From Coptis chinensis (lineage: Eukaryota > Streptophyta > Magnoliopsida > Ranunculales > Ranunculaceae), in assembly GCA_015680905.1 (NCBI GenBank), contig CM027381.1, positions 84,035,501 through 84,099,500 of the forward strand: a stretch of 64,000 nt of DNA. Direction: 5' to 3'. Below are positions 33,060 through 64,000 of this stretch, piece by piece; the first letter of the stretch is position 1; every line of letters begins with the position of its first letter. The position numbers and the translations under genes were made by a program. Below the pieces are notes generated by a model. That model was not told where the DNA came from, made no database searches, and saw nothing but the letters and a program-made list of their open reading frames with translations.

Positions 33060-33259
33060 CCTTGTTTTAAAAAAAAAAAATTTTTCTTTTTTTTTGTTTT
33101 CTTAGCGCCAAGGTGGTTTCGCTTTCTTGGTATTGTGGTTGAGCCTTTCACGACAGTCCTAGGGTTTTCGCTTTTCTTGGCGTTATTGTATTTTCTCAAT
33201 ATGTCTTGTGAGAAAAGTGATTTTATTTGCATTCGCTCACCGGGAAGAACTATTCTCGC

Positions 33260-34200: not shown

Positions 34201-34615
34201 CAATCATATGACAAATAATTCAACTTCTCTCTTAATCTCAAATCCTATGTTGGTCCTCTTAAAATTCACACGCAAAATGGTAGCTCTCTACCTATTATCT
34301 GCTGTGGGTGACATTTCTCCCATTATAAAAATGTCTTGGTTTCTCCCCAATTATCTACTTAATTTGATTTCGTTGGTCGCCTTTGTTGATAATAATTGTA
34401 ATGTGATTTTTCTTCGTCTGGTTTGTGTGGTGCGGATCAAATGTCACGTAAGACAATTGTGAAGGGTCCTAAGGAGGGGCGATCGCTTTCCATTGGTCAT
34501 ACATCCCCAATCTAGTTCTTTTCATTTCTGCATGGTCTTCTTTTGTACTAGTTCTAATTTATGCCCCGAGGATTGGCATCGGCCTAGGCCATCCTAATCC
34601 TCTGCACTTCATACA

Positions 34616-35400
34616 TTGTTTCAATCTGGTTTTCTATACAATAAAAACTCGCTTTCCCTTGATTCGTTGTCTTTTGATTGTTCTTCTTGTAAACTAGCTA
34701 AGAGCAAAAGTCTACCTTTTCTCGGCCCGGGTTCACATGCTTTCAAATTTTTTGATATTGTGCATAGTGATGTATGGGGATTTCTCCTATCATCTCTTAT
34801 GCACAATACAAATATTTTGTAACCTTCATTGATGACTATAGTAGGTTTACTTGGATTTATTTCTTTTTGCGTGCTAAAAGCCGCAGGTTTTCAATCTTTA
34901 AAAATTATCTTGCACTCATTAACAATCAATTCAATTCCTCTATCAAGAGTCTTCGATCCGATTCAGAGGCTTAATATCCGTCAAATGAGTTTCAACACTT
35001 TCTTCAAGAACGAGGCATTCTTTTCTCAACGATCTTGTCCAGCCTACTCCACAACAAAATGGAGTGGTCGAACGTAAGAACAGCACATCTTCTTGACATG
35101 GTTCGGGTTTTACTTCTAGAATCCTCTGTTCCTCCTCGCTTTTGGTGTGAAACTTTATCTACCGCTTATCTCATAAATAGACCGCCTACTCCCCCTCGCT
35201 TGATAATGTTTCACCATATTTTCGCTTTATTTGGGAATCATCCTCGTTATTCTAATCTGCATACATTTGGTTGTGTTTGTTTTGTTCATCTTCCCCGCAT
35301 GAAAGAACTAAGCTTTACGCTCAACTGCGAAATGTGCATTTCTTGGTTATAGTTCTCATCGAAAGGTTTTTATGTTATGATCCCGACGCCATCGCTTACG
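34616..35400 (+). pseudogene. Copia integrase, broken
   Basis: Integrase read across three frames: a zinc-binding CSSCKLAKSKSLPF segment, FDIVHSDVWG with a catalytic Asp, FIDDYSRFTW, SLRSDS, then LLLESSVPPRFWCETLSTAY and FGCVCFVHLP. The order and spacing are those of Ty1/copia integrases. At least three frame changes and one stop interrupt it. Confidence 0.85.
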
Positions 35401-35832
35401 ATTTCACGACATGTTGTTTTCTTTGAAAATCAAAAGTTTTTCTCTCTCATACCGGATTCTCAAGCTTTCTATATATTCTATTCTTCCCCGATTTTTCCCC
35501 CCTCGCTAAACCTACAAATCGATTTCAGCCAGTCTAGTTTATACTAGACGCCTCGCCTTTTGGTTACTCCTTCTCTCTGACCCTCCCGCGACGATTGATC
35601 CGCACCCTCTCCGCGCTTGTTCCTAGACGATCTACCCGAAGTTTCTCATTCTCCTAATTGGTATGGTTTTTCCTCACATATTTCCATGACCGCCACTCTC
35701 CTCTATTTCCATTCCTAATTTTATAAACAAATGTGGCACATGAATGTTGGCAAATGCCATGCAGTCAACTCGATGCACTTGAGCAAAATCAAACATGGGA
35801 TGTAGTACCTTGTCCTTCCTTGGTGAATCCTA

Positions 35833-36640
35833 TTGGTAGTAAGTGGGTGTTTTCTCGTTAAGCTTCGCCCGCTGGATGGTTCTTTGGAACGCTACAAAGC
35901 TCGATTAGTAGCCCCGGGCAACCGACAAGAGTATGGCATAGATTATGATGAGACATTTGCCCCTCGCTGCCAAGATGACTACAGCTTCGGGTTCTTCTTG
36001 CCTTGGCTGCCTCACATTCTTGGCAGCTTACACCAAATGGATGTTAAGAATGCTTTCTTGCATGGGGATCTTAAGGAAGAGATTTACATGAAACTTCCTT
36101 CCGGTATGACACTTCCTACCCCTAACTCCGCTTGTGTTTAAACGCTCTTTGTATGGTCTTAAGCAGTTCCTGTGGCATGGTTTGAAAAGTTTCGAGCACA
36201 CACTACTCGGTTTTCATTTACCCAAAGTCAATATGATGCATCCTTATTTTTCACAAGAGTAAAGATGGCATGGTCTTTCTATTGGTGTATGTGGATGATA
36301 TTATCATCTCGGTTCGATGTGACATTTATTACAAAGCCGCAACAACATTTACATACAGTATTTCAGATGAAAGATCTTGGGGCACTCACTTATTTTCTTG
36401 GTTTAGAGATTCGCCTCAACCACATGGGTTGTTTCTTAATCAAAGACAAGTATACACAAGATCTAGTCCACCTTGCACGGCCGGAAGACACCACTTCAGT
36501 TGATACTCCTCTTGAAGTGAATGTAAAATTAAGAAAGGATGAGGGTGACCTTCTTGATGATCCTACCTTATATCGACAATTAGTAGGGAGTCTAATTTAT
36601 CTCACTATTACTAGACCTCGACATTTCTTATGCAGCTTCA
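35833..36640 (+). pseudogene. Copia reverse transcriptase, broken
   Basis: RVT_2-type reverse transcriptase. Recognisable are ERYKARLVAPGNRQEYGIDY, ETFAP, HQMDVKNAFLHGDLKEEIYM, the LLVYVDDIII catalytic box (about 36273-36303), LGALTYFLGLEI and LYRQLVGSLIYLT. The YVDD box is intact but lies in a different frame from the following block. Confidence 0.9.
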
Positions 36641-37180
36641 TACTTTAGCGTGTTTATGGCTTCACCACGACATCTTCACATGGTAGCCGCTCGTCGGATT
36701 GTACTGGTATCTTTTGGGGACTCCCCATCGGGATTATTTTTTCCACATGGCAAAGCACTCAATCTAGTATCATACGCTGATGCCGGACAAGGTGATGTCC
36801 GATTCTCGGCGATCTACAACCGGATGGTGCGTTTTTGGTGATTCGCTTATTTCATGGAAATGTAAGAAACAAGATTGTGTGTCAAAATCATCTATCGGCT
36901 GAATATCGGGCCATGTCGGTCCTCCTCCTTTCCGTATGGTCCGCTTCGTGGGATTCTCTCTCGAAAGTTAGGTTTTCCTCAAACCAACCCAACTCCCTCC
37001 ATGGCGATAATACTAGTGCTATACTGATTGCCGCAAATCCAAAGGTGTTTCATGAGAGAACAAAACATATAGAGGTTGATTGTCATTATATCCGCGATGC
37101 CTATGAAGCAAAGGTTATTACTCGCCTCACATTCCTACCGAACATCAGGTCGCTGATATTTTTACTAAGGCAATGACAAG
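36640..37180 (+). pseudogene. Copia RNase H, broken
   Basis: Copia-type RNase [20 protein letters not shown], then after a frame change [28 protein letters not shown] and KHIEVDCHYIRD. Frameshifts separate the parts. Confidence 0.85.
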
Positions 37181-37237
37181 ACAACGACATCAGTTCCTTG
37201 TTAGCAAATTGATGCTTGTTGACTCACCAACATCAAT

Positions 37238-37248
37238 TTGAGGGAGGG
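37238..37248 (+). promoter_or_regulatory. Copia polypurine tract
   Basis: TTGAGGGAGGG directly upstream of the right LTR, the normal plus-strand primer of copia elements. Confidence 0.85.
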
Positions 37249-37466
37249 TATCAAAGGGGGTTCTTCTTAATATAGCACACCTGCCAGCATATCCCTAGAT
37301 TCTCTAGATTTGTTTGTATTCCATTCCAAAATAACCTAGAGAATATCTTGTAAATATCCTAGAAGATATATTGTAATATCTTGTAAATATCATTTGCTAT
37401 TCTATAAAAAGGGACATAGGTATCTCAAGGAGAATACCAATTCACAATATTCTTGAGTCCTTGACA
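37249..37466 (+). repeat. Copia right LTR
   Basis: 218 bases. I found no difference from the left LTR on reading the two side by side. It is followed by the CTAGG target duplication at 37467-37471. Confidence 0.95.
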
Positions 37467-42900: not shown

Positions 42901-45772
42901 CTTATATACTTGTATAAAAGATATGGCAGAGCCACAATAATCTCTCAAACGCCTCTAATTTTGTATCTCCTAGAATACTCCTGTTAGTTATATTATTCAC
43001 AGTACAACTCTTTGTTTAAAACTTGAAGACGACTTCTTTGAAAGATAAAGTAGGAATTCCAACCTGTATTTGTGTTTGGATTTTAATATTTCCCTCCAAA
43101 AAAGAATGTGATATGCTTTTAAGGAAATAAATTAAGTCTATTGATTCTGGCATTTCAGCTAACTTTTTTTTCGGTGCCTTTCTTGTATGTTTTTCCTCGG
43201 TTCTCTACTCTTCTCAAAGCCGTAGAATATGATAGTAATATCAGTTTCCCAGATTGAACTTGATTGTCTTTTGCAAAACCGCTGTTAGTATTAATAAGGA
43301 TATCGCTTTGTTAGTGGCTTAAGTTTTGAGTGTTGCTCTGATCTTTTTTACTTTTTGTTTTGTTGCATTGATTATCATGTATCACTGCGTAGTGGTGTTA
43401 TTCTGATCGGAGTGTTTAAATGTGAAAAAAGGCCAGTGGAGCTTCCTGTCCATCTCTACTGTATTTGCGGCACATGAACTAACCCTTTATGATGTACTTG
43501 ATCTGATTGGATGAGATAAAATTACTTCAATGAACATATGGGTTATCATTTTAGAATGATGTGCCAGATTGGATGATTACGATATAACTTCTGGTGATTT
43601 GGTCAAGTTGGATTATTTTTGTTGATTAGTGTGCTCTTGATGTGGTACAGTGGTAGGTCGTGATATGTTCAGATTTGTTTATGTCTGCATTTTAGTTTTT
43701 TGGAGCATACATATACATAATAATATTCATGGCATCAGGAGACTTGCAAATTCCATATAAACAGATGGATAATCTGACCAGGATTTATTTTTTCAGGACA
43801 TAGGCATGCAATGTAATCAAGGTGATGTCAGACAAGCTGATCAGGCACATATGTGCAGAACTTCATTAAGTACAGATATTGCTGCGCGAAAATTGGAAGA
43901 TATTACATACAACTCCAACAAGTAAAGCCGATTTGGCATCACCTTGCAAGAAGTTTAATAAAGGAGAAGTGACAGTGCAAACCATGCCTCAGTCGGGGAT
44001 ACATTTCAGTTCTGACACCCCAAACCCAGCAAGAGAAGATCTTCGACGAAAGGAGGACACAAGTCATAATTTGACTGATATCATCACAAGTCCTTCAAAC
44101 AGATGCAGTGGCCACCCTACACTCAATTTTTGTCAAGAGAAACTGAGAAGTCATTTTGATTGTGACAGATCTGGTGCTCAAACAACGGTTGCTGACTCTA
44201 GGTTTTCATCTCTTTCCAAAATCAGAGGAGAACCATGTGATTTGTCTAGGAGTCAATTACAGCACTTGCAAAACAATCTTACTTTTCACTCCTCAGCGCA
44301 TAGCATAAATAGCATGGCTGGCAATGTAAGTCTCGCTCCAATAATTTCTCTTCTTTGGCTGAATGATTTTGTCATAACATGTATGTTTTCCTTGAGTAGG
44401 GAATTAATCATCAAAAAGAAGAAACAGTAGGTCATTCAAAACAAAATGTTTCAGAAGGTTCAGCAGGAGGTATGTAGTAGTTTAAATGTTTCATGGATAT
44501 GATTCCTATTAGTAGCATATTAGTAATTAACAAACAACATTAGGAAGACCTCTTACATTTAGACTGTGTCTGGTTCTTTGCCAGATGAACCCCTGGAATG
44601 TATTGCTTAGCAGGCCTGATTTGTGTTGGTTTAAAAAACATCCCCTTTATATGCCTTAAACCATATAATGGTTTTCTGAAGTAACTCTGATGCCGTGTTG
44701 TTTGATCAACATCAGTAATGTCTCTGTTGGAAGTGTTGAGGTTGGGATCTACAGAGCGTGATACATCAAAAGAAACTGCATTAGTTTTGGAAGAAACATT
44801 GAGCAACGTTGAAGATGTGCCACCTCTTTCTGTGTGGATTGAAGGTTCGCATTCTCCTGCAATGATTGGCAAAAGTAAGTTAGAATCAGTTAATGATTGC
44901 ATTTAGATATTATAATGTCCATTCTACTTGATCAATACTTCATTTCTGCAGGAATTTCACCAGATAACCGACTTACATCTTCCAGCACGGCAGTCACATT
45001 GAGAGAAGAATCAGTGGCGGGCAATCAATTTGAAGAGCCCTTGTATGTGGATAAATGTTCCATGAGTCTGGAAGTGGCTAAACTAACTGGTGACCATTGT
45101 GACATGGATGTAGAAGATGGAGGGAATGAGATTGTTATGGAGTTAAATCACAACAGTGACAAGCAAACTTTGAACAATGAAAACATGCCCTTCACTAAGA
45201 GCTATCCTGTATGGAAGGATGTGGAGTCCATGGAAGTATTTCGCTCAATACGTCAAAAGCCTCATTTTCGACCCTTAAGTTCACGTTCTGAGTATTTCCA
45301 TGAAGGAGATGCAGTGGGGTTGATGCTAAACTTTGCTAATGTTGTGGAGAAAATAAGGGGGGCTCAACTTAACGACCCTAAATCCGCTTTAGAAAGTAAA
45401 TTAGAGGCTCTTAAGTATTTTGAGGACTTCGGGTTCAATGTTCAACCAATACGAGCTCGTCTAGAGGAGTTGCTAAGAGTCCAAGATAGCCAGTTACAAC
45501 TTGCTGGGATTTCGAAGCAACTAGAATGGCAGATCACTGAGGAAAGGAACAAAGAACAATCACTGAATTCACAAGTTGATGAACTGAATGAGACACTTAG
45601 GGAGCTTCAAGAATCCCTGAACCAGATTAGCAAGGAGAGGAAAATGGTTGAAATGGAAAAACAGAAGAAAGGCTCTAGCATTGCCTTACTGCAACAAAGA
45701 CTTAATGATATCAAGAAAGACATTCAGAGGACCAAACTTAATTTTACTTGTGTAGCAGCTGCTCCTTGGTGA
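39927..45772 (+). CDS. Agenet-DUF724 gene 3, probably intact
   Basis: Plant DUF724 protein with four Agenet (Tudor-like) repeats. Such proteins are thought to bind chromatin or partner proteins; the exact role is unknown. Exons: 39927-40370, 41596-41934, 42456-42875, 43876-44325, 44400-44469, 44716-44874 and 44952-45772 (TGA), 900 aa. Residues 1-148 hold Agenet 1-2 (VELRGEDEGYKDTWYTGKI; YQQVDAFYNNGWKKG), 149-261 a Ser/Pro/Lys linker, 262-401 Agenet 3-4 (VEVSLPDKHCCGAWFPATVI), 402-627 linker, and about 628-900 DUF724 with a C-terminal coiled coil ending AAAPW. All junctions agree in phase. Oddity: the ancestral exon 4 acceptor (CAG before 43797) gives a frameshift and stop near 43921; a weaker CAG at 43873-43875 restores the frame. 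Otherwise the protein would stop after the fourth Agenet repeat. Confidence 0.85.
40450..40990 (-). mobile_element. LINE RNase H fragment in intron 1 of gene 3
   Basis: A minus-strand frame (40912-40520) reads THKEGYGGAIRNRAGQIAMA and KKLAVCEGIEV, the start of an RVT_3-type RNase H as in plant LINEs. The first catalytic Asp region is degraded and the later part is replaced by unrelated residues. The segment is absent from intron 1 of gene 5, so it is an insertion into gene 3. Confidence 0.65.
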
Positions 45773-47050: not shown

Positions 47051-50000
47051 ATGGAGCTTAAGGAAGGGCAAGAAGTAGAGGTTCTAGATGAAAAGAACGG
47101 GTTTAAGGATACATGGTATCATGCAAAGATCATAAAACTTAACAGAATGATACTAGTTGAGTATGACAACTTGTGGGCAACTGATCAACAGGGATCACAA
47201 CGACTTCGAGACTTTGTTAAAAAGTGTTCAGTAAGACCATTACCACCTAGAGAGCCCAACCAGATTTTTGAGTGTTATCAAGAAGTTGATGCTTATCATA
47301 ATGATGGGTGGAAGAAAGGTACAATCATTGAAGTTGATAAGAAGTTGTTGAGGTTTACTGTTTTTTTTACGGTTTTGAAAGAGAAAGTGGATTTTGGAGC
47401 TGAGAACTTGAGAGTTCATGTTGACTGGATAGATGGGAAGTGGGTTAAAAACCAGCAACAGGTAAAACTTATTTACTTTTCTTTCAGTTTCTGTCATAGC
47501 TAAATTTTTGACAAAAGGGTATTTCTAATTTTGATGGCGGATCTAAGATTATAAGTGGTTTTCTGTGTGTGTGTATGTTCTTTAAGCTTATGCAATTATA
47601 TTCTCTGCTTAGATTTTTTTCTTGTTAGATACTAGGCCGGAATCAAAGATTGGATTGTTTGATTAGATAAATTATAAATTCACTCTCGTTTCCTATGGCT
47701 GTATAGATTAAGCATGCATTTCGACGAGAATTATTAGATTTTTATGTTCATACTAATATGGAGAAGTGTTATATGTCATAATAACTCTGTTTGTTTCCTG
47801 AGATATGTTATTCCCACCTAATGTTTCTGTCCTTTCGTTTTGAAATATTACCATATACAAGCTATGAGGGGGCTTCCCCATATTTCTAGTGGCGTGTGTT
47901 TCTGCGTGGCGGTACATCATTATCTTTCTTTTAGCTAAAGTGTGCATCATTATCAGCATTGAAGAGTATGCATAGATCTTCATCTTTTTCAAATCTCATA
48001 TATGATAATAGAAGATGAAACTTTTCTGTTTCAACTTAGAAAACATGTTGGTTCAGACACTTTGGTTGTGCCCTTCTCTTGAAGCGGCCCGTGGATATAA
48101 TAGACGAGATGGAGCAAATCAGCATTTCGTGCAATGCTTACATACGTTGATCAAGTCCGATTACCCTGGGTAGATCAGTAAATCTGAATCATTCGCTAGA
48201 GACAATTCTTGGGCTTTTTTCTTATTTTTTTCTAGGTAAGTGGAAATTATATTAAAAAAGTGAAGAAAAAACTGCACTGGAGAAGGATAGCTCATAGCTA
48301 ATCCATTCGATAAAACGTCAACAGTTCTTTAGGCATGCATGATAACTCTAACTAGCCTTAAGAGAGGACGAAAGGTCAAAAACACGTATACACGCTCACT
48401 AATATTATCAATATATTAGTTTTTGTTGAAAGTGACTAATAAGAAATAGTGTTGCAGTAACTAGAAATGAAACCATGAGCATAAAAGAGAATGTTAGCCA
48501 CGTGCCATATCACATAGGTCAGAGTGGTTCGTTCTGTACACAACACTTACACCAAATAGTTAGGCACGAAATGATGTTTGTTGGCGGAACCTTCAACAAT
48601 GGTTAAACATCAAGAAATCAGAATGATAGTACTGAAACTAAATGTAACCATAAACCTAAACAAAACCACTTGGACTTCACTTAAATTGAGTTAACGAAGA
48701 TGGGTTATCCTTCTGAATATCAGGGAGTCAGTGTCCAATGAGTTTGAATGTGATTGCCATATTTAACACCGACTGTGAAGAGACTACAAAAACATGTTAA
48801 GTTCATTCATTCTGAGTTCCATTCCATTGGCCGTACAGGACTTAGAGACCTTATAGCACTTATGACCCTCTGGTATTAGTCCGCTTTTAGTCTCCATTCT
48901 TCTAGGAGCTTGACTTTAGGCTAAACATCACCTACGGATTATTTATTGTAACACATCTTTTCTGCTAGTGGTTTGATGATCAATCCATTGAGATATCACG
49001 AAAAGGTTATAAAACTATAAAAGAACATCCAGAAAACGTTGCGACAGTGATATGTCTAAATCTATGTTACATGGACACGCCATATTTCAAAAATAATCCG
49101 TGTTGGATACATATCCATGTGTCCGTGTCGACACACATGGACACAAATTGTGTGTAATATACCTCAATTTTATATTTTTCTCCATGTTAGACACTTCGTA
49201 TCCGTGTCAGATACGGACACACGTATCTGTGTCAATGTAACTTAGGTCTAAATGCAGTGGCAGTAACCTATCTAGAACTTGAGATGCATGATTCATGCAA
49301 TTGAGACTGTTCAGTTTCATGTCTAAATAAGACGTTCATACTGTTTTACATTTTTTAAACCTCCACATAAGTTAATATCTAGTCTCTCATAGTAGTAAAA
49401 TTGTCCTTGTTGCTAGCGATGGATGAGGGGTTTATCACAGCAGGAACACCAGCAGAAGTCATCCTTCGTCATAAACATTGTAGTGGTGCTTGGTTCCCAG
49501 CAACAGTGCTCAAGGAACTCAAGTATGGCTTATTCTTGATTCAGTACTTGAGCTTGAAGTTAAGTGAGGTGGAGGGGTGTTTAAAAGAAGTTGTGCACAC
49601 TCTAGATATCCGACCAACCCCTCCTCGAAATTTTGAGGGAAAAGAACTTGGTGTGACAAGTAAAGTGGATGCTTTTCTTGATTTTGGATGGTGAACTGGA
49701 GAAGTGATTGAAGTTCATGCTGGTAACCAGTACATGGTCCAATTTCAGCATAAAAAAAAAGGAGAACATTCAGTCAATTCGAGCTAAGGTGCCATAGGGA
49801 ATGGATCAATGGGGAATGGGTTCAAGAATTATTTGTAAGAAGGTTTGGCCTACTTTTAAAAGCTATGTGGTATTGATATATCATCTTCCATATTACATCA
49901 AGAACACAGAAGCCCCAAACAAACAAAAGAGTTCCCAGGCCACCAGTGGCTTCCACCATACCCTACTTCTCCTCCTCATCATCCAAGCCCTACCCAGCAT

Positions 50001-52684
50001 CTGAGCAACTGAAAATTAGATGATCATCCTCCTCATCTAGTTTTTTCCTTATAATGTTTCGTTGGTATTGATTATCATGATATTGTTTGTCGCTCACATT
50101 TGTCTTTGTCTTGTATTTTGTAGTTCATACGTGTTTATATTCGACTCTGTTCTGCATAGGTTATGATGTTTTACTGGGTACTTTATGTTATTCTCATAGG
50201 AATATTTGAGCTTGTTTTACTTGTTTGTGTTGCATTCTGTAATTGCCTATACGAGTGAAAGATTTATCGTCTCAAAATGATGTCTCGGTTAGAATGTTTA
50301 AGATGCCACTTCTGGTCACATTCACCTTGAAATATGGGTTGTTTTTGTAGAATTCTTTTACTGCCAATTCACTCTGAAATTAAGTTTTGGTTATCTGCAT
50401 TTGGTGTGGGCAATCTTTGTGTTCAATGTGATCGAGTTTAAGAGATTTTCCTTCTATGTATTTATTCCCATCCGTGATATAGCATTTAGGAGTATACATA
50501 CTATACATTCATAGCACCGCAGATATCCTATCACACTAGTTATGTATCTGACCAGGAGCTTCTGTTTCAGGATTTAGGCACAAAGTGTAGTCAAGGCAAG
50601 GTTGAACAAACTCAAGCACAGCTGTTGCAAGCCCGTAACACTGCTCTCAATACTGATATAACCGATGAATCACATAGAAGAAAGAGAAAAATCGAATATG
50701 CAGCTCCTGGCAGCAATTCCCAGTTTCCACCACCTAACAAGAAGTTAAATAAAGGAGAATCTACACTGGGCTCCTTGTCTCTTATAGAAGAAACCACAGG
50801 AGCAATGCCTACCAGAACCATGCCTAAGTTAGGGTCATTCTCTAATCTGAACAGCCCAACTGCAAAGGGAGACGGAGTTCTCTTTGAAAAGAAGAAAGTC
50901 GATAGTCAAAATTTGAATAATAGTTTCACATGTCTATCGGACCGGTCGATCGAGCATCCTACACTGCTTATTTGTAAAGAGAAAGTTAAAAGTGATTTTG
51001 GTTGTGACAACTCTGTTACTCACAGAACAGTTGCTGACACAAGCTTTTCATCTCTTTCCCATATCAGAATAGAACCATCTGATTCGTCTAAAACTCAATT
51101 GCAGTACATGCAAAACAATCTTCCTGTTCATTCCTCAGCACATAGCATAACAAGCTTGGGTGGAGATGTAAGTTTAAGCTCCAATTAGTGTTTGTCTTTA
51201 GCTGATCGAATGATCTTGTTATAATATGATTTTTAAATTGAGCAGGAATTCATTCAACAGAAAGAAGGGATAGGAGAACAAACAACTATCAATTTGGAAA
51301 CAGGAGGTCAATATATTTCAGAACCTACAGAAAAAGGTATGCAGTAAGTCAGATTCTTTCGTATATAAGATTTTTTATTAGTATCAATGGGCAAACAACT
51401 TTAGGAAGAACAAAGGTCCTTTAACACATGCATAGCCACTCGAACGAATGGCGAATGGTACTAAATGAAAATACATTCTTTTTTCAACCTGTGTTCATCA
51501 TAGCTTTTCAATCCCTTGAAAACCTTTTCCATATAAACTTTGTTAAGTTTGATGCCTTAATATTTCCTCAAAATTATTACTTAGTTGGACTCACATTGAC
51601 TTAACACTAAAATTGAGGAAAGTGTTTCATTGATCCCAAACTGTACACTTCCAACGGAGACATTAGTGATGTCAATCAAACAACACATACATCGAAAGAA
51701 GCTGAGATTAATTTGGCAGAAATATTGACCAGTTGAAGATTTGCAACCTCTATCTATGTAGACCGGGGTTTCGTTTTTCTTGCAATGATTGATAAAATTA
51801 TGCTATATGAATAATTGAATGCTTTTATGGAATTATTGTATTTATCATTCAAGACTTGCGCAGGAAATTCCCCAGATAACCGACTTATATCGTCCAGCAT
51901 GGCAGTCTCCTTGAGAGAAGAACCAGTGAACGTCAATCAATTTCAAGAGCCCTTGTATGTGGATAACTGTTCCGCGAGTTTGGAAGTGGATAAAAATACA
52001 GATGACGAAAGTGACAGGGATGCAGAAGATGGAGAAATTGAGATAGCTATGCAGATTGATCACAACAGTGATGAACAACCTTTGGAAAATGAAAACTTGC
52101 CCTTCGCTAAGAGCTTTTTTCTATGGAAGGAAATTGAGTCCATGGAAGCATTCCGTTCGATACGACAGAAGCCACATTTTCGACCCTTAACTTCACGCCC
52201 TGAGTATTTCCGTGAAGGAGAAGCTTTTGGTTTAATGATGAGCTTTGCAGGTTTGGTAGAGAAAACAAGGGAGGCCCAACTTAATGAACCTAAGACCGAT
52301 TTTGAAATCAAACTAGAGGCTCTTAAGGATTTTGAATTGTTTGGGTTCCATGTTCAGCCAGTACGAGCTCGCCTAGAGGAGTTTCTTAGAGTCAAAGATA
52401 GCCGCGTACAACTTGATGAAAATTTGAAACAAGTTGAAGGAGAGATCAAGAGCGAAAGGAATGATGAACAATCACTGAAGTCTAAAGCTGTTGAAATTGG
52501 TGAGAAACTTGGGGAGCTTCGAGAATCAGTGACCAAGATTGAGAAGGAGCTGAAAATGGTTGAGATGGAAGAGGAGGCCAAAAGCTCTAGCATTGCCTCA
52601 TTGCAAAAAAGGCATAATGATATTGTGAAAGAGCTTCAGAAGACCAAAGTTAATTTCACATCTATAGCTGCAGCTCCTTGGTAA
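47051..52684 (+). pseudogene. Agenet-DUF724 gene 4: second Agenet pair ruined
   Basis: Exon 1 (47051-47461; MELKEGQEVEVLDEKNGFKD, YQEVDAYHNDGWKKG) is intact with Agenet 1-2. Exon 2 is reduced to a stub near 47938-47965. Exon 3 (about 49417-49837; AGTPAEVILRHKHCSGAWFP) has lost its normal acceptor, has TGG to TGA at 49692 inside Agenet 4, and a one-base loss in an A9 run near 49752. Exon 4 (50571-51167), exon 5 (51246-51336) and exon 7 (51864-52684, ending AAAPW with TAA) are open and in phase. Exon 6 (about 51633-51796) has lost frame and donor. Exons 1+4+5+7 join in frame to 639 aa: one Agenet pair plus DUF724 with coiled coil. A shorter functional protein is therefore possible; the full-length form is not. 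Confidence 0.8.
49070..49239 (-). mobile_element. Short MITE-like repeat, copy 2
   Basis: Inverted counterpart of 31576-31720, about 170 bases, in intron 2 of gene 4. Ends are CATGGACACG and TGTGTCAATG. The two copies are similar along their whole length but differ at many sites, so the insertions are old. Confidence 0.7.
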
Positions 52685-53541
52685 ATATGTCTTCATCTTC
52701 CACGAAGCATTGTACAAAAAGTACTAACTAATTCAACACCTTGTGATCCTATAATAGTGGTAATTTGTTTTCTCTTAATTGTGCTGAACCCCTTGAATCT
52801 GACCGTCCACATGATATATATGTATGATATTTTCATACACATAATATGAATTCACTCAAGGATCAAGGCAATCATTTTGTGTTTGTATACTCTGATTAGG
52901 ATAACTCTAAGCTGATAAATCTCTTGTACCAGATTACCAAGCCAGCAATGTCTTTTTGAGTCTGTCAAGGCATGTGGAGTGCGGTACCATACCTGTTACC
53001 ATGTTCATGAATTCTTCCAGAAGTTATACTTAAAATTTTTCTCTAGTTCAATCGAATGTAAATTCTGTAATTCATTTGTCACCGCAACTTTTGTGCAGAG
53101 ACTAGAGTCTAGACTCTAGAGACAATGGTTTTCGTGGAATAGGGTGGTTGTTTTTGTTACGTTTACTGGACAATAGTTATGTTTTTGTAAACTGAATTTG
53201 CCTATTAAGAGTCATTTGTCCCTGCAATACAAGAAGGTTAAGAATATGTTCTTAGCCTTTGATGCCTCTTGGCACTAGTTACTAGTTAGCAGTGTACTGG
53301 TTTGCTTATTCAACCTGAGCATTAGTTCTCTGACCTAGAAACTGATTTGAGAGCAGTATTGCAGTACCATATTATCACAGTAATCACAAAGAGTAGAGAA
53401 ACAAAGAAGGGCATTTTGGACATTTACGTAGTCAATAAAGAAGGGTAGTTTTGGTCTTTTGGACAGTCAAATACGTCAGTTCCGTAACACACAAGAATAG
53501 CAAGTGTTGAGTACTACTTAATATAACGCGCCAACTTGAAG
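52685..53541. other. Spacer between gene 4 and gene 5
   Basis: 3' flank of gene 4 and upstream region of gene 5. A CATTTTGGACATTTACGTAGTC block (53411-53432) resembles one upstream of gene 3. No other gene seen. Confidence 0.45.
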
Positions 53542-53585
53542 AAAATGGTTTATACTCAAAACTAGTAAAACTTCCAGCTGCTTCA
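53542..53585 (+). promoter_or_regulatory. Shared upstream block, gene 5
   Basis: AAAATGGTTTATACTCAAAA then CTAGTAAAACTTCCAGCTGC, about 141-184 bases before the ATG. It closely matches the gene 3 and gene 6 blocks, and GCGCCAACTTGAAG just upstream resembles CCGCCAAACAAG before gene 6. Confidence 0.5.
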
Positions 53586-53725
53586 GTCTTTTCATAACCA
53601 TCATTTCTCTCTCATTACAAATCTAAATCTCTCAGCTCACCAAACCACTTTAAAACTTAAACACATGCACTCTTTCCTTGAAAGCAAATAAGTTGCATTG
53701 CTAGCTAGAATTGAAGAAACAAACA

Positions 53726-56700
53726 ATGGAGTTTATTAGAGAAGGGCAAGAAGTAGAAGTGAGTGGGGAAGCAGAAGGAGGGTTTAAGGACAAGTGGTAT
53801 ACAGCAAAGACCATAAAAATATCAAATGGAACAAGTAAGACCAACGTTCTAGTTGAGTATAATCAGTTGAAAGCAAGTGAGCAAGGTTTGAAAAGATACC
53901 AAAACAATGTTAATCCTTGTCATGTTAGACCATTACCTCCTAAACAACCAACTCAGCTTGCTTTTCAGTATTATCAAGTAGTTGATGCTTTTCATAATGA
54001 TGGGTGGAGGAAAGGTAGAATTGTTAAAGGTATTGATGGTGAGTTGGCGGCGTTGAAGATGTTTAAAGTACACTTTCAACATCCGGATGAAAAGATTGAT
54101 TTTGGAGCTGCGAAGTTGAGAGTTCATCTTGATTGGGATAATGGAAAATGGATTGATAACAATCAGTACCAGCAGGTAGTTTGTTTACCTTTTTTGTTTT
54201 TTGTTTTTAGTTTATATTTATTTCTTCTAGGACTAGCTAGCTTGCATTGTTCTTGTGAATGGGTATTTCCAATTTTCTTTGTATTTCTTTCCTTTTCTTG
54301 TTTTTAACATTTTGCAGTATAGCTAGGCTGTTTTCTTTTACAAATGGGCATTTCTAAATTTCTAACATATCAGATTTTCAACTGAAGAAGAATTATATAG
54401 AGACAGTATCTTGTTTATATATCTTTGCTGAACATTGGCATTTTGGTATCACAATTCTATATCTAACTTTTTACCTTGAATTGGTTAAACGTCAACAACT
54501 ACTTCAAGGAGAAGCATGTTGAGGAAGGGAATACTTCTCTTCCTTTTCATCAAACATCAGTTCACTATCTAAAGAATATGCGTGCCGGTGGTGGCAGCAG
54601 CAACTTTGGGAAACAGAATAAGCAAGAAGATCCCATGGTAACATCTCCAAATTCTGCCACGTCGACATTTTCTCCGCTGCCAGCACTACTACAATCACAT
54701 CAATCCTCAGAAGTAGAAAAGAAGGAAAACAATAAGAATGGTGGGAATCGAACCGTTAAAAGAAGGTTCTCTGAAGAAGGCAAAATTGCCACACCAAGCC
54801 CTCAACCATTCTTGCCTCTGCCACTGGTACTACAACCGCTTCAGTCCTCAGAAAAGCAGAAAAACACTAATAGCGGTGGGAATATGGAGGAGCGTCGAAC
54901 TGTTAAAAGAAGGTTCTCTGAAGAAAGAAATAGGGGTGCATCACCAGCAGCATTGCAGAAAGTATGCATACATCTTTCCCTTCTCTGAATCTCATTTTAC
55001 AATAGCAGATAAAGTTTTTCAACTTAAAAATATATGTTGGCCTTAGGCTCCTCATCAGTCTCACATTTTCGTTGTGCCCTGCTCTGTTGATCCTAGGGTA
55101 AAATAGACTATACTGAATATGGTGCAAATAATTTGTTTAAGTAATGCTTACATTTGGAGATTTAGTCCGTCCCCATGGGAAAAATCCTGATTCCAGGCCA
55201 AAGGTATACTATTTTCAAAGTGAGAGACTACTTAAAAATTAATGTTGCCTGTAAACACAGGAAAGATTTTTAACCACAATAGCCATGAGAGCACAAAGTA
55301 GAGTGGTTGTTCTGCTCATGACACTTATACCAAAGAGCTACCAAAGAAATTGTAATGATAGAACTGAAATTAAAGTAACCATAAATCAAAGTCAGTGTCC
55401 AAGTCATTCTAATGTGGTTGCCATACTTAAATCTGAGTATGAAGATGAAACTGCAAACCATGGTGGAGTTATCCATCTAAAGTTCCATTCCAATGACCAT
55501 ATAGAGCTAACCAACTTTATAGAACTTGTGAACTTATGGTATACGAGTCTTTGTCCAATAACAACCTTCTCACTTCTAGGAGCTCAGCTTTAGGCTTTCT
55601 ACCCCTATTTATAAGAACACATACTTCCTGCAACATTTATGGTGCAATATCTGCTTTTTAATTGAGCTTACTGATTTTCATAGATTTTGGAAAATATTCT
55701 GATTCTCTTAAAATTGTTATTGATTTAATGCCCGTTCTTTCCGCATAAAAACCTCCACGTCTTCTTCTGAACCTATCTCCTTTGCTCAGTGTTTCCTCTG
55801 CTTGATCAGTTTGTGACCTTGCACTTATTTATTGGTGTCGAACTTTCCAGCTAGAGATATCTCTGCAAGTAGAACTCTCCACTGCAGACATATAGAGAGT
55901 GTGGTGTGATGATAAATCTATTGATTGACTTAACATATCATAGTTATATGTCTAAGATAATATGGGAGGAATCATGACTGCCGTATTATACTTTAAAAGT
56001 GGTTTGCTCCAGTAATTAACAGGTATCCCTTAAAGCTTGTATCGTCTCTGAAAGTAATATTTCTTATTGCACGATTCACGCAATTGAGACTATGTTCACT
56101 TTTATGTCTAAATAGTTGATACAGTTTTTAAAATCCTGCAACCTCCATATCAGTTAATAACTTAATGTGATAATATCTAGTTTCTCGTGGGTTAGTAATG
56201 CAACTGTACTTCAATTCCTTGTAGCAAGCAATGGATCAAGGGTTTAGCACAGGAACACCAGTAGAAGTCAGCCTTCCTGATAATCGTTGTCGTGGTGCTT
56301 GGTTCCCAGCAAGAGTGCTCAAGGACATCAAGAATGGCTCATTCTTGATTGAGCATTCCAACTTGAAATTAAATGAGGCAATGGGATGTTTAAAAGATGT
56401 AGTGCATGCTCCACATGTCAGACTCCCCCCTCCTCAAAATTTTAGGGGTAAAAGTTTTGTTGTGAAAGATAAGGTGGATGCTTTTTGTGATTTTATCTGG
56501 TGGAGTGGAGTAGTGATCGAAGTTCTTGCTGGTAACCACTACTTGGTTAAGTTTCAGAATCAAAAGAGAATGAGAACATTCGATCGATTTGAGCTAAGGT
56601 GCCATATGGAATGGATCAATGGGGATTGGGTTCAAGAATTAAGGGTAGGGAATTTCAGTCTTCCATTTAATAAAATTAAACATCACCTTGTTTGTGGTTT

Positions 56701-59080
56701 AGGTTCTGAGTGCTTTCCTTGATCATCTGTACGTGTTTATATTTTCCTCTTTTTGCTTCCCTTATGATGCCTTTACTGGGTAGTTTGTGTTATTTTGGTA
56801 GGAATACATAACTATGAAAACAGGACAGTGGATGCTTCCTGTCTGCCTCTGCTGTATTTGTGGCACATATTGACTACCCCTAGCTTCTTGTTGAAGTTGA
56901 TCTGACTGGATGAGTTTAACCATTTAATATGTTGCATACCAAAATCACTTAAATGAATGCATGCTATATCATCCAATGATGATGTCACAGATTTGCTGAT
57001 TAGGATGCCACTTCTGGTTGAATTCAGCGTGGTGTTCTTGTTTTTGGAGGATGCTTCTTCTGATAATTAATTCTCAAATTAAATTTTGGCTATCTTCACT
57101 TGTTTGTGCTGTATAAGACAGAGTCAAGATATTTTTTTCTCTAGGAAACTGGAATATACGTACTTTATATTCATGGCATCACAAATATCATATAAGTTAA
57201 TATTATATCTGGTCAGGAGGTTAATGTTATATCTGATCAGGAGTTTTTGTTTCAGAATATGGGCATAGAACAAGCACAGCTGTTGCAAGTCGGTAAAACT
57301 GCTCTAAGTACTGATGTTACAGATGAATCACTAACAAGAAAGAGAAATATCAATCATACAACTCCTACCAGTGATGCCCAAAGGTTGCCACCTAACAGGA
57401 AGTCGCATAAAGGAGAAGTGAGTCAAGCAACAATGGGCTCCTTGTCTCTCACGGACGGGTCCTGTGATCATCCTAAACTGCAAGTTTGTCAAGAGAAAAC
57501 TAGAAGTGGTTTTGATGTTGATAGATCTGGTAATCAGATAAAAGTTGTTGACTCTAGCTTCTCATCTCCTTCCACCGTCAGAGGAGAACTATGCTCTTCT
57601 ACAATTCAACCACAAAACAATTTTGCTATTGCATCCTCAGCACACAGCATAGAAACCTCGGGTGCTCATGTACGTCTATGTTCCTATCTATATGGTCTTT
57701 CTCTTGGACTGAGTATTATTTCAATGATATCTTATTTTATTCATGTAGGATATCAATCAACAGAAAGGAGGTGTAGCAGGCCGTCAATCAAAAGAAGATA
57801 TTTCAGAAGGTATAAGTTCAGGTTATTTCGTGAATATGAATTTCTACAAGTAGCACATGTTGTTGATAAAAAAAACACTAGCACATACCATTAGGAAGTT
57901 CAAAGCAGCATAACCACTGAAACCAAGTAATAGTGAATTAGTGATAATTGAAGACACGAATACTTGTGTCTCTTTCATAGCAAAGTGTTTTTTTTCTGAA
58001 AACCATTTCATTTTCATGTCTTGTTATCTCTAATCTATACACCTCATATCTAATGATGTTACCCTCTTTGGTGCTTTGTAGATCCCAAACTTCACATTCC
58101 CTGCAGTGAAGTCAATGATGTTGTTCATACAGTACTTACATCCAAAGGAGCTGACATAATTGTGACAGGAAGCGACGTAGAAACTGTGCAAGCTCTATCT
58201 ATATGCTATGGCGATTCTTCTTGTCCTGTTGCAATAATTGATGACAGTAAGCTAGAATCAACTAGTGAATGCTTTTAAACAATAGCAATAAGGAAAAGAA
58301 TGCTTTAAGATACTACCTAGTTTAGTTAATCCATCCTTGTTTTGCACAGGAGTTTCAACTGATAACCAACATACATCTCAATCAATAACCTCTATCAAAG
58401 CATCAATTGAGAGCAAGGAATGTCAAGATATTGTCATGACGCCTCTCTTGAATGATCACAACAGTTACGAGGATATTTTGGAGAGTGAAATCTTGCCCTT
58501 CATGAAGAGCTCTCCATGTTGGAAGCATGTAGAGTCCTCAGAAGCATTTCGCTTAATGCTGCAGAAGCCACATTTTCAACCATTAGAGAAACAACATGCA
58601 TTTCTTCGTGAAGGAGAAGCTCTAGGTTTGATGGTAAGCTTTGCAAATTTGGTGGAGAAAACAAAAAAAGTCCACCATGATGAACTTAAGTGCGTTCTTG
58701 AAGACCAATTAGATCTTGTTTCCTATTTTAAACCCTTTGGTTTCAATGTTCAACCAATACAAGCTCGGCTAGATGAGTTGTTGAGAGTCAAAGAGAAGGA
58801 AGTGCAGCTTGATGGGGAGTTGAAGCAAGTTCAAGGAAAGATCATGAATGACAAAATTGAAGAAGAAGCACTGATATTGGATATTGATAAATGTGATGAA
58901 AAGGTTAGGGAGCTTCAAAAATCTATTGACGAGATCAGTAAGGAGCGGGAATTGCTTATGAAGAAAAAGCAGACCACAGGTTCTATGATTTCCTCGTCCC
59001 TAAACATGCATAACGAGATTGAGAAAGAAATGCAGAGGATGAAAGTGATGTTTGATAGTAACACAACAGCCCCTTGGTGA
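53726..59080 (+). CDS. Agenet-DUF724 gene 5, intact
   Basis: The best-preserved member of the cluster, 897 aa. Exons: 53726-54175, 54509-54961, 56225-56644, 57256-57669, 57749-57809, 58082-58246, 58350-59080 (TGA). All introns are GT..AG and all phases agree (0,0,0,0,1,1). Residues 1-150 hold Agenet 1-2 (REGQEVEVSGEAEGGFKDKW; YYQVVDAFHNDGWRKG), 151-301 a linker with a duplicated basic KRRFSEE segment, 302-441 Agenet 3-4 (VEVSLPDNRCRGAWFPARVL; KVDAFCDFIWWSGVVIEV), 442-654 a polar linker with a TRKR patch (possible nuclear localisation), and 655-897 DUF724 (SPCWKHVESSEAF, REGEALGLMVSFANLVE, FGFNVQPIQARLDELLRVKE) with a coiled coil and the terminal APW. Agenet repeats are Tudor-like readers; DUF724 members are plant-specific. 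I chose ATG 53726 because the Agenet homology starts there and gene 2 begins alike. Confidence 0.92.
54700..54932 (+). repeat. Internal duplication in gene 5 exon 2
   Basis: Two in-frame units (about 54700-54785 and 54839-54932) share the order TCCTCAGAA.. AATGGTGGGAAT/AGCGGTGGGAAT and GTTAAAAGAAGGTTCTCTGA. The protein thus has the basic TVKRRFSEE motif twice. Genes 1-3 have one unit, which explains the longer exon 2 here (453 versus 339 bases in gene 3). Confidence 0.8.
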
Positions 59081-60801
59081 ATATGATTTGATCTTTTCTG
59101 CACTTGCACTATGTAAGTTCAGGCTACTTACTACTCCACCACCTTATTGTCAGTGCCTTATTTTAAAAATGACTCTGTAACTGATTTGACCCTTAAATGT
59201 GGTTTATTTGTTTAATTGGTACATTTGAATCGACACTTGAAGGATTATGGCAATCATTTTATTTTGGTATTCTTGATTAGCATAATTCTCTGTTAGCTGT
59301 TAGTTGGTAAAGTCTCCGGTTCTCGGAGCTCATTCTTTTCTGAGATGCCACAGAGGTGTATTGTGGATTGTCTGAAATGCATAATGTGAGTCCACTGGAA
59401 AACTTGTAGGACTCTGCACAAACGGATATGACCTATTCTTTGCACAGGGCAGTGGCATAAATCGGCGGTTGAGTAAATATTATTTCACATGGTCTTTCAG
59501 TGATGTTAATTCGAGTCATGGTGTCCTCTGCGACTGGTGTCCAGCAAATTTTATTTAGCAAAGTTGGTGAGTGTGTCCTCTTTCTTCTATTATGTACAGA
59601 ACAGAGCAAGATGAAGTTGGACTAAACTTTGCCGGTACTAATAATATATATATTTTTTTGATAATTAAATTTTATGAATGGAGGACAAAGATCAGAAAGG
59701 CCACTACAAGTGGTGTATACTCACCTGTATCAATTATCAAGGACAACCTAACAGCGGTTTGCAACTTTGCAGTGTTCATAAACACATACAATCTAGAATA
59801 CAGATATGAAAGGAAGATGTATACACACAATTTAGTACTGAAAAACTGTCATCAGGCAAAAGTGTGTGGCTTCCAAGAGTGGTTATGCCTATATTATACA
59901 CGATGCTTCTTCAAGCCTGTTTGGTAAGCTAGACTAATAAAAGTATAGAACAACAGAGAAAATTGTTGTATAGAAGAACTATAGATTCATCTTCAAGTCC
60001 ACACATGGGAGATTCATTCCTCTTCTTATCAAAGGATGTTGTTACTGTTGTATAGTTTCATTATTAACCATCCAGTCATCTAAACACTATATAAACTATC
60101 TAAACCTTGCTAATTCTTGCGGAATTACTGATGGAAGTACCATGTCACAGACCCTCTCTCTAACATTAACACTCACAAAACCGGTCCTTAAAAAGTTAAA
60201 ACTAGCATAGCGGTCACTTCACAGCATCAGACATGGTGATGTAGATTTAAACTGGTGGAAGTTTCAGTTTATTAAATCTACTATTGAATTAAACAAAACG
60301 AAAAAACCTAAAAAATGGCTCTTTTATTGAATATCACAACTCATAAACTTCAACACTGAAGAACCCTAATTACAAGTCCTTTTATTTATACTAAACCTAG
60401 AACCCAATAAACCAATAGAAAACAGACAGACGTGTCAACAACTAACTAATGGACTCCGTCATGACTATGGACTTGGACTCGACTAAGGGGCGCACTCAAC
60501 ATCAACAAGACACTAATGTTTTACATCACATTTGGTTCACCGTCTCATAAATTAAAAATGTTGAACAGAAGCAATGATAACCATCATCAACTACTGCAAA
60601 TGTCCCCCTAATTAAATTGCACTTATTATAATAGATGTATTATGGAATTGCCAACTACCCAACCAAATATGTTTTCACTTGCATTAGTGAATAAGTGGAG
60701 TCTGTCCTCCTTGCATTCAAAACCCAAGGCCATTTTCGTCCACCAAAATATGACTTTATCACCAAGAGTCAGTACTCACTACACAAACCCGCCAAACAAG
60801 A
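59081..60801. other. Spacer between gene 5 and gene 6
   Basis: 3' flank of gene 5 followed by about 1.5 kb with no supported gene. A 118-codon plus-strand frame at 59571-59927 resembles no family. The stretch around 60270-60540 (many ACTAA/CTAAACC words, GTGTCAACAACTAACTAATG) looks like repeat debris, but I cannot name it. Confidence 0.4.
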
Positions 60802-60840
60802 AAAATGGTTTAAGCTAAAAACGGTAACATTTCCAGCACC
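60802..60840 (+). promoter_or_regulatory. Shared upstream block, gene 6
   Basis: AAAATGGTTTAAGCTAAAAA then CGGTAACATTTCCAGCACC, 59-97 bases before the ATG. A reading frame runs through it into exon 1, but the homologous genes show no coding here, so I treat it as upstream sequence. Confidence 0.5.
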
Positions 60841-60898
60841 ACAACTGTACTGTGTTCATAAACCAAACCACTTCACTTTCACTGGAAGCAAGAAAAAA

Positions 60899-63800
60899 AT
60901 GGGAAAAGCAAAAGGTGACAGTGAAGTGTCATTATTCAAGGTAGGTGATGAGGTAGAAGTAAATGGTGAGAATGAAGAGTTTAAGGATACATGGTTTACA
61001 GCAAAGATTATTAAACTAACAAACAAGAAGTCTGCAAAGATTTTGATACAGTATGAAATATCAAAGTATAGAAAGTTTGTTAATCAAAATGGTATAAGAC
61101 CATTACCACCACCTAAAGAAGCCAATGAAGTTTTTGAGTGTTTACAAGTTGTTGATGCTTTTTATAAGAATGGGTGGAAGAAAGGTAGAATCTTTAAGGT
61201 ACTTATAAATAAGAATGTGAGGTTTACTGTTTATTTTCCGGGTTCGAATGAGAGAGTAGATTTTGGAGCTGAGATGTTGAGAGTTCATTATGATTGGGTT
61301 GATAGCAAATGGAGAAAATCTCTTCACCAGGTAATTTCATTTCATTTGTTTATCTTTTTAGCTTAGTAGCCCTACTTTGGGAATCAAAATATGCAAGAAG
61401 ATCCAATGTTGATAGGTCCAACTTCTGCCACACCAAGTATATTGCCTCTGCTACCACCACACCAGCCACCTAAGTCCTCAGAAGTAGAAAACTAGAAAAT
61501 TGATAAGATTGGTGGGAATGTAATTAGTAAACAAGGGTTCACTGTAGGAAGTGCATCATCCGCAACATTGAAGAGGGTATGCAGACAGTAGTACTCCCTT
61601 TTAACTTATACAAATACGTTGGTCTTATGCCCACATCACTCCTAAGATATAATGCTTAGTTGCTTACATATGTTGATTAAGTCCAACTCCCAAGGGGTAG
61701 ATTCTGGTTCATGGCTTTTGCTAGAAAAAGTAGTTTGACATACGAGATTGCCTTTAAGGAAGGAATACAAAACATGTAGACTCACTAATATTGCCAGTAA
61801 ATGTATTTTAGTTTTTATAGTGAGTGACTATTAGAATTAGTGTGCAGCACCCTGTTGTTCTGGAATGAAACTAAAACATAGGATAGATTACTAGCCACAC
61901 TACCCATGAGTGATGAGACTACGAGAGCACATAAACTAGAGTGGTTGTTCTGTTCACGACACTCAAACCTAACATCAAGGTTTCAATGTGGTTTCTGTAA
62001 TTAAACTCAAGTATGAGGAGACTGCAAAGCATGGTGAATTTCATTCCAAATAGCATTCCAATGATTATATAGAAATAACAGACTTCATAGTACTGTTGAC
62101 CCTCTGATATTTGAATCTTTTCACCTGCTGATAACCTTCTCTCTTCTAGGAGCTTGACTTTGGGATTAAGATTACCTACCCTTGTTTATTGTTACACATC
62201 CTTTCTGCTAGTGGTTTGATGATCCATCTAATGATTGACTTTACATAGTATATTTTTGTGTCGAAGATAATATGGAAGATATCATGACAGCCATTTGATT
62301 CAGTAAACAGCTTATATGTCTAAGATGCTCTGTAAGTAATATGATTAGATGAATGATTCATGCACCTGAGTTTGTATTCAATTTCATGTCTAAATAAGAT
62401 GTCGACACAGTTTTTTAAAATCTAGTGATCTCCATATCAATTTCTGTCTAGTTTCTCTTGGGTTAGTATTACAATTGTACTTCCTTGTAGCAAGCAATGG
62501 ATTGAATGTATCACAGGAACATCAGTAGAAGTCAGGCTCTGTGATAAATTTTTCTGTGGTGCTTGGTTCCCAGCAAGAGTCCAAAGGGAACTCGAGTATG
62601 GCTCGTTCTTGATTAATTAAGTACTCAAACTCGAATTTAAGTGAGGTAACGGGGTGTTTAAATGATGTTGTGCACACTGCACGCTCCACATATCCGACCC
62701 TCCCCTTAAGAGAAAAGAATTTGGTGTGACAGATAAAGTGGATTTTTTTTCGATTTTGGCTGGATTATTTACAAAGTTTGTGCTGGTAATCAGTACATGG
62801 TCCAATTTCATCATCAAAAGGAAAGCAGAACCTTCTATCTAGTTGAGCTAAGGTGTCATATGGAATGGATCAATGGGGAATGGGTTCAAGAATTATCCTT
62901 AGGAAATTTCAATCTACTTTTGTGTTAATCAAATTGAACTGTACATTGTTTGTGGCTCACCTTTTTGAGTGCTTTCTCTAATCTTCCATACACCATTATA
63001 GTTTCCTCTTTTCGCATTGGCTTTTTTGATTTACTGGGTTGTCTGAGTTATTTTAGAAGGAACATATGATGATATGAATATGGAAAGAGGAGTCTGCAGG
63101 CATTCTGTCTGCCTCCACTTCAGTTATTGCGAGTGAACTAACCCTTCCCGATGAAGCTGATCTAACTGGAGGAATTTAACAGTTTATTATGTTGCATTCT
63201 GCAATTTTTAAAATGAATGCATGGTCTATCAACTATCATATCAAAATGATGTCTAAAATGAATTGATTAAGAGGCCACTTCTAGTCAAATTCAGCTTGGG
63301 TAGTTGGTTGTTTTTGTAGGATGCTTCTACTTCAAATTCACCCTGCATTTTAGTATTCGTTATCTGCTCTTTTCGTGTGTGCAATGTTTGTGCCACATTC
63401 AATAAATTATTCCTTCTCCGTGTTCACTGCTATTCGTTGTATAGGATATAGAAGTATATATACTTTATATTCAAGGTAATATGGCATTGCAGACATTATA
63501 TCACTTGGTGATATATCTGACCAGGAGCTTTTGTTTCAGGAAAGAGGCATAAAATGTGATCAAGGCGAACTCCAACAAACAGATCAGCCACAGCTGTTAC
63601 ATGTCGGTAACACTGCTCTTAGTCCTGATACTGCTGATGAGTCACATTCAAGAAAGAGGAAAACCAAGAACACAACTCCTAGTGGCGATGCACAACTTTC
63701 ACCACCTAACAAGAAGTTAAATGACGGAGAAGAAACAGAGTGCTCCTTGTCTCTAATAGAAAATCCCACAATAGCTATGCCCACCAGAACCATTACCGAG

Positions 63801-64000
63801 TCAGCTACTTTTTCTGATGTAGAAACCCCAACCAGAAATGCAGACGGAGCTCTTCTTCTCCAAAAGAAAGTTGTTAATCAAAATTTGGCTGATCTTTTTA
63901 CAAGTCAATCGAATGGGTTGAGCAATCAACCTTCACTCAAATTTTGTCAAGAGGAAATGAGAAGTGACTTTGACTGTGACAGATTTGGTGATCAGACAAA
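60899..64000 (+). pseudogene. Agenet-DUF724 gene 6: damaged exons 2-3, runs off window
   Basis: Exon 1 (60899-61330; LFKVGDEVEVNGENEEFKDT, LQVVDAFYKNGWKKGRIF) is intact with Agenet 1-2. Intron 1 has shrunk to about 40 bases and exon 2 (about 61371-61577) has a TAG after EVEN, where Lys is expected. Exon 3 (about 62492-62900) has a TGA three codons after its normal start (AMD then stop), a TAATTAA insertion near 62614-62620 and missing segments, so Agenet 3-4 is lost. Exon 4 (from 63540, after TTTCAG) is open to the window edge with SHSRKRKTKNTTPS and PPNKKLNDGEE. Exon 1 and exon 4 are both phase 0 and can join in frame, as in gene 4. Exons 5-7 lie beyond the window, so I cannot say whether DUF724 is intact. 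Confidence 0.75.

Follow-up and report, generated by a model that had tools for sequence, protein, structure and literature searches.

The window analyzed here, a 64,000-nt stretch of the Coptis chinensis genome (C5:84035501-84099500; genome size 936 Mb), ends within a tandem array of Agenet–DUF724 genes. Pfam matches across the same genome place a parallel array with identical gene order on C8 (26.887-26.921 Mb) and a third, partial copy on C5 (83.87-83.89 Mb); our sequence sample comprised 20 stretches around the arrays and four further loci. The two-pair plan is represented by gene 5, in which Agenet pairs 1 and 2 are encoded by exons 1 and 3, the DUF724 domain by exon 7, and linkers by exon 2 and exons 4-6. 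Exons 2, 3, and 4 of this gene have phase 0-0 and exon 6 has phase 1-1, so that each can be omitted without a frameshift. The features of gene 4, the comparison gene 5, and gene 6 are as follows:

47051..47461, + strand: gene 4 exon 1, Agenet pair 1, open, Lys at the cage-Trp position
47942..47982, + strand: gene 4 exon 2 remnant, with the 3' end alone recognizable in the C5 and C8 copies
49412..49838, + strand: gene 4 exon 3, dead; acceptor AG changed to TG, TGA at 49692-49694, 1-nt deletion near 49755, donor intact
50571..51167, + strand: gene 4 exon 4, open, phase 0-0
51246..51336, + strand: gene 4 exon 5, open, phase 0-1
51637..51815, + strand: gene 4 exon 6, dead; both copies with a 2-nt deletion, a stop, and loss of the donor, the C5 copy also being without the acceptor AG
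51864..52684, + strand: gene 4 exon 7, DUF724 domain, open to TAA
53726..59080, + strand: gene 5, the intact two-pair comparison gene, seven exons, 875 aa
60899..61330, + strand: gene 6 exon 1, Agenet pair 1, open, Lys at the cage-Trp position
61366..61576, + strand: gene 6 exon 2, dead; 5' end missing, in-frame TAG common to the C8 copy
62494..62903, + strand: gene 6 exon 3, dead; +4, +7, -11 (-14 on C8), and -1 nt, common to the C8 copy; donor lost
63540..64000, + strand: gene 6 exon 4, open, running on past the window to 64139
up to 65540 in window numbering, + strand: gene 6 exons 5-7, beyond the window

Several other features were observed in and around the array. An open frame at 10770-11282 is one that we take to resemble a fragment of a plant glycosyl hydrolase of family 9. 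The gene 2 region contains a Copia-like element (32828-37466; type judged from the translated frames) with two 220-nt repeats that are 100% identical; the near-identical C5 copy at 83.87 Mb lacks this element, which is thus young. Pieces of the segment 27237-47717 are 95.9-99.2% identical to C5:83.868-83.886 Mb, stopping in gene 4 intron 1, and this similarity is due to a recent local duplication; in the duplicated copy, gene 4 exon 1 carries a 3-nt change, an insertion of 1 nt, and a deletion of 1 nt. Exon 2 of gene 5 includes an internal duplication of ~125 nt (54575-54961; 70% identical).

Joined together, exons 1, 4, 5, and 7 of gene 4 yield the continuous 639-residue frame that had been predicted from the window sequence (1920 nt, 639 aa plus stop), and the exon 1 end/exon 4 start coordinates given there, 47461/50571 for gene 4 and 61330/63540 for gene 6, proved correct. 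The C8 copy of gene 4 is also open across exons 1, 4, 5, and 7, with no stop and with AG/GT retained. When gene 6 on C5 is read past the end of the window, exons 1, 4, 5, 6, and 7 form an open frame of 2037 nt encoding 678 aa. All live junctions of genes 4 and 6 on C5 are GT/AG, and an origin by retrocopying was ruled out because introns are present and these junctions are in place.

The original prediction described exons 2 and 3 of both genes as carrying stops, frameshifts, and broken splice sites. Both exons are indeed broken in both genes, by different lesions, except that gene 4 exon 2 is mostly absent rather than just stopped, with only its last ~40 bp being recognizable and the remainder missing. 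At exon 3, each gene has one damaged splice site: exon 3 of gene 4 on C5 has lost its acceptor and still has a good donor (GTAAGA), and exon 3 of gene 6 retains its acceptor and has lost its donor. In the C8 copy of gene 4, exon 3 retains both acceptor and donor and so may be included, not skipped; on C5 this exon is out of frame by 1 nt, and on C8 by 5 nt. The 2-nt deletion in exon 6 of gene 4 is scored by comparison with genes 3 and 6. A count by eye gave six or seven inactivating lesions in gene 6, all in exons 2-3 and none in the 2037 nt of the C5 live exons, a clustering with a chance probability of 3.8e-5 (seven lesions) to 1.6e-4 (six) for precisely exons 2-3, 0.0017 to 0.0044 for any two internal exons, and 0.019 to 0.042 for any two exons. 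In gene 4, where six lesions fall in three exons, the corresponding clustering is weak (chance probability of 0.018 with internal exons considered and 0.34 with any three exons). Gene 6 is itself broken on C8, with frameshifts in exons 4 and 7; thus, the short form was not retained everywhere.

The preserved phase of the flanking exons had been read as a sign of useful skipping. Exons 2 and 3 of the intact gene 5 are 0-0 as well, indicating that phase compatibility was inherited and is by itself no evidence for a short form, and we rejected this argument. Breakage is also found elsewhere in the arrays: in gene 3 on C5, a run in exon 4 (43797-44325) is longer by one base, whereas the copies of this gene on C8 and at C5 83.88 Mb stay in frame at this exon; gene 3' (C8) lacks 16 nt in exon 7, and gene 5' (C8) has deletions of 13 nt and 1 nt in exons 1 and 2, respectively, although some of the array frameshifts are single bases in runs, for which assembly error is possible. 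Overall, the short frame is open in three of four copies (gene 4 on C5 and C8, gene 6 on C5), and the two-pair frame in one of four (gene 5 on C5), with shifts in gene 3 on C5, gene 3', and gene 5' and with gene 3 exon 2 left out of the count.

The lesions in exons 2 and 3 of gene 6 are common to C5 and C8, and this loss is therefore older than the split of the two arrays. In gene 4, the near-complete loss of exon 2 and the damage to exon 6 precede the split, and the 1-nt deletion in exon 3 may also be shared by the two copies, with four more nucleotides subsequently lost on C8. Comparison of the two exons 3 revealed none of the gene 4 lesions in gene 6 and none of the gene 6 lesions in gene 4, so that the losses look separate, in agreement with the proposal of two independent events. 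The exon 3 tree places genes 4 and 6 together (support 0.83), and an unseen common first step may lie behind both exon 3 losses.

Divergence between the arrays was gauged against sites outside the modeled exons, where C5 and C8 differ at 394 of 14,993 aligned sites (2.63%) and by 82 indels; because these sites still include untranslated and unmodeled parts of genes, this yardstick is, if anything, too slow. By this measure, the four dead exons compared (3 and 6 of gene 4, 2 and 3 of gene 6; 1214 nt), with 28 substitutions against 31.9 expected and 6 indels against 6.6, have evolved at the neutral rate since the array split. The live exons of gene 4 (1920 nt) show 33 substitutions versus 50.5 expected and a single aligned indel versus 10.5, located in the A-run of the stop codon, which is TAA in both copies; no indel changes the frame. 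This deficit is most pronounced in exons 4, 5, and 7 (18 substitutions versus 39.7; Fisher, 2.6e-4). In the live exons of gene 6 (2022 aligned nt), there is no deficit of substitutions (51 versus 53.1), and five indels are present where 11.1 are expected; the four frameshifting ones all belong to C8 (exons 4 and 7), with zero frameshifts on the C5 branch against 5.6 expected indels. Gene 5 shows 44 substitutions versus 68.7 and 4 indels versus 14.3. The strongest deficit is that of gene 3 (31 versus 59.6 substitutions and 2 versus 12.4 indels over the five exons modeled), a gene with one shift per copy, so that such deficits speak for selection during most of the period after the split rather than for present function.

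Between the copies of gene 4, NG86 omega is 0.41 for exons 4, 5, and 7 (p 0.077), 0.94 for exon 1, and 0.59 for all four exons (p 0.19); between those of gene 6, it is 0.29 for exons 4-7 (p 0.001) and 0.72 for exon 1, and for gene 5 exons 2-7, it is 0.86. Under one-omega models, values across the whole family are high (exon 1, 0.58; exon 3, 0.84; exon 4, 0.73; exon 7, 0.71), and the per-exon branch likelihood ratio tests gave no significant improvement (p 0.16 to 0.54), for which reason we place weight on indels and lesions, not on omega alone. On the C5 branch of gene 6, exons 1, 4, and 7 fit best at an omega of 0.15-0.3, with omega=1 worse by 3.1 lnL. When gene 4 and gene 6 are combined at their C5 tips, omega 0.2 is preferred in exons 1, 4, and 7 (1.0 worse by 3.22 lnL; 2 delta lnL ~6.4), and omega 1.0 is preferred in exon 3 (0.2 worse by 4.6 lnL), on a coarse grid of 0.2, 0.5, and 1.0 and with few changes behind the result. 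Thus, the contrast that the original prediction had proposed to look for, selection on exons 1, 4, and 7 and neutrality of exon 3, is found in the C5 copies, with neutrality of the live exons disfavored at approximately p 0.01 on these few changes. For both gene 4 tips together, omega=1 is not rejected (difference of 0.56 lnL), and the branch of the broken C8 gene 6 is also below 1 (omega 0.5; 1.0 worse by 2.05 lnL).

The DUF724 domain is full length in both genes (PF05266; 4e-45 in gene 4 and 3.3e-44 in gene 6, profile positions 2-188 of 188), and each has one Agenet match (PF05641; 7.9e-16 and 1.4e-10). The exon 1 pair is homologous to the tandem Agenet domains of ADCP1/AGDP1 (PDB 6ie5, 5zwx). 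The methyl-lysine cage of ADCP1 is described as consisting of Y301, W306, and F323, with Y/W double mutants lacking binding (PMC6318295), and the account of AGDP1 agrees with this cage (PMC6208443). When aligned to 6ie5, all four exon 1 pairs on C5 have a basic residue at the W306 position (K, R, K, and K in genes 3, 5, 4, and 6, respectively), and on C8, exon 1 of gene 4, exon 1 of gene 6, and a further pair likewise have K. W occupies this position in the exon 3 pairs of genes 3 and 5 and of the C8 gene 4, and also in each of the two pairs of a gene at C8:26.47 Mb. The retained pair has an incomplete Tyr, Trp, and Phe set in its second Agenet (H, K, F in gene 4; Y, K, F in gene 6), an argument that depends on alignment to ADCP1, with the Tyr301 position being variable in many pairs. 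The codon of the cage tryptophan in exon 3 is the TGA of gene 4 on C5, and in gene 6, it is removed by an in-frame 9-nt deletion that is common to C8. Judging from the alignments, the lost pair 2 is the one with the cage tryptophan, and the retained pair 1 has lysine in its place. Genes 4 and 6 thus appear to be short forms that lack a standard methyl-lysine cage.

In the stretch read, four DUF724 loci outside the arrays (L037-L040; four read out of 34 DUF724 matches listed) have an exon for a single Agenet pair and, after it, an exon for DUF724, which makes tolerance of a short form unsurprising. All four have W at the cage position, unlike genes 4 and 6. A single pair therefore appears to be ordinary in this genome, but a pair without the cage tryptophan is not what these four loci retain.

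We favor, with moderate confidence, the interpretation that genes 4 and 6 on C5 are shortened, still selected members of the tandem Agenet–DUF724 cluster that lack the cage and act mainly via DUF724. Exons 2 and 3, together with exon 6 in gene 4, have decayed while the remaining exons have held their frame and splice sites and, in exons 4-7 of gene 4, also their sequence. The broken exons are predicted to be skipped because a splice signal or the bulk of the sequence is gone from most of them, and because the ancestral phases join exon 1 to exon 4 in frame. The resulting product would consist of exon 1 with Agenet pair 1, a linker, and the C-terminal DUF724 domain. Given that pair 1 has no cage tryptophan in any cluster gene examined and that pair 2 is lost, the short proteins would no longer read methyl-lysine in the manner of ADCP1; they may instead serve as partners or modulators of full-length relatives, with histone reading altered or absent. 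A more specific scenario, in which the cluster has been shedding methyl-lysine reading, first through loss of the pair 1 tryptophan and then of pair 2 separately in genes 4 and 6, leaving selected DUF724 decoys that pair with the full-length relatives and hold them in check, is speculative and seems to us rather unlikely.

Exon 1 is the weak point of the favored interpretation. Between C5 and C8, its divergence reaches 3.65% and 3.3% in genes 4 and 6, respectively, above the noncoding 2.63%, versus 1.35% and 1.14% in genes 3 and 5. Of the 411 sites of gene 4 exon 1, 15 are different, against an expectation of 10.8; polarized against genes 3, 5, and 6, nine fall on C8, three on C5, and three are ambiguous, with ~5.4 expected per branch. 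Hence, the exon is fast on C8 and near neutral on C5, with substitution constraint seen in neither copy, and an earlier impression from tree branch lengths that it is conserved on C5 was dropped after this polarization. Gene conversion from another copy or selection may account for the fast change on C8. Such drift would be expected if the DUF724 half (exons 4-7) alone were used, via an internal start or another promoter. The C5 and C8 copies of gene 4 also differ directly upstream of exon 1 (L017:5144-5365 on C8 is unlike C5, and ~100-150 nt before the ATG are absent), and wheat DUF724 genes without Agenet motifs have been described (PMC10531524). Yet genes 4 and 6 each have an open exon 1 with its donor retained on C5 as well as on C8, and the C8 gene 6, the start codon of which lies inside a 13-nt deletion, has a new in-frame ATG; we regard exclusive use of the DUF724 half as improbable, albeit worth keeping in mind.

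Neutral evolution across all exons, which would make the two genes plain pseudogenes, is not what the live exons of gene 4 and the lesion pattern of gene 6 on C5 show; yet gene 4 exon 1 alone drifts, and recent death is possible, with exons 1, 4, 5, and 7 open by luck because too little time has passed since selection ended. The cluster is in a state of birth and death, with gene 3 on C5, gene 3', gene 5', and gene 6' all shifted, the deficit of the broken gene 3 is as strong as that of gene 4, and the gene 4 branch omega is indistinguishable from 1. However, such luck would have to extend to 1920 nt of gene 4 without a frame-changing indel and would leave the substitution deficit of exons 4-7 to be explained; in gene 6, exon 3 has four shared frameshifts and the C5 live exons none, indicating that selection outlived the loss of exon 3, though it may since have ended. 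We consider recent death of both genes a minority possibility. It is far less plausible that exon 3 was never fixed as coding in these genes or that its lesions are assembly errors. Some of the differences are single-base changes in runs, but the gene 6 lesions of 4, 7, 9, and 11 nt recur on another chromosome, the TGA and acceptor loss in gene 4 are substitutions, and over 114 residues, exon 3 of gene 4 still matches its gene 5 counterpart at 58% identity. Restoration of the live exons by gene conversion is unlikely as well, considering that gene 4 exons 4 and 7 share only 36 to 65% protein identity with other array genes. Overall, the suggestion that the short form is tolerated or useful holds above all for exons 4-7, which are constrained while the dead exons are neutral, and not for the unconstrained exon 1 of gene 4 or the broken C8 gene 6.

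Evolutionary loss of symmetric internal exons is a general phenomenon, and genes 4 and 6 share with it the broken phase 0-0 internal exons between open flanks, with skipping being predicted here. The shortened proteins envisaged above would resemble the Agenet–DUF724 proteins of Arabidopsis Agenet/Tudor class II, such as AIP1/DUF7, in having an N-terminal Agenet part and a C-terminal DUF724, but differ in that they became single-paired through internal exon decay and retained a pair without the cage tryptophan. For AIP1, the DUF724-bearing C-terminus is described as binding partners in yeast, AIP1 as binding itself, and the full-length protein as lacking in yeast one interaction that the C-terminus shows (PMC4634149). 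The H3K9me2 readers ADCP1/AGDP1 are described as having three tandem Agenet pairs homologous to the exon 1 pair of genes 4 and 6, where W306 is replaced by Lys; the term DUF724 does not occur in the main text of either report (PMC6318295, PMC6208443). Wheat DUF724 group II, characterized as lacking the Agenet motif and having few or no introns (PMC10531524), offers a likeness in the reduced Agenet part, genes 4 and 6 still holding one pair. Among titles in the literature on DUF724, Agenet, AGDP3, and the aromatic cage, none concerned the loss of an Agenet pair in DUF724 genes.

Genes 4 and 6 constitute a natural experiment in which the same reader module disappeared from two members of one array through different lesions, and the second, slightly diverged array copy allows the losses to be dated. 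The case is a modest one among known kinds of change, the odd twist being which half was retained. If the short proteins are made, DUF724 would have a selected role without the pair bearing the standard methyl-lysine cage, which, if true, would bear on the function of what is still a domain of unknown function.
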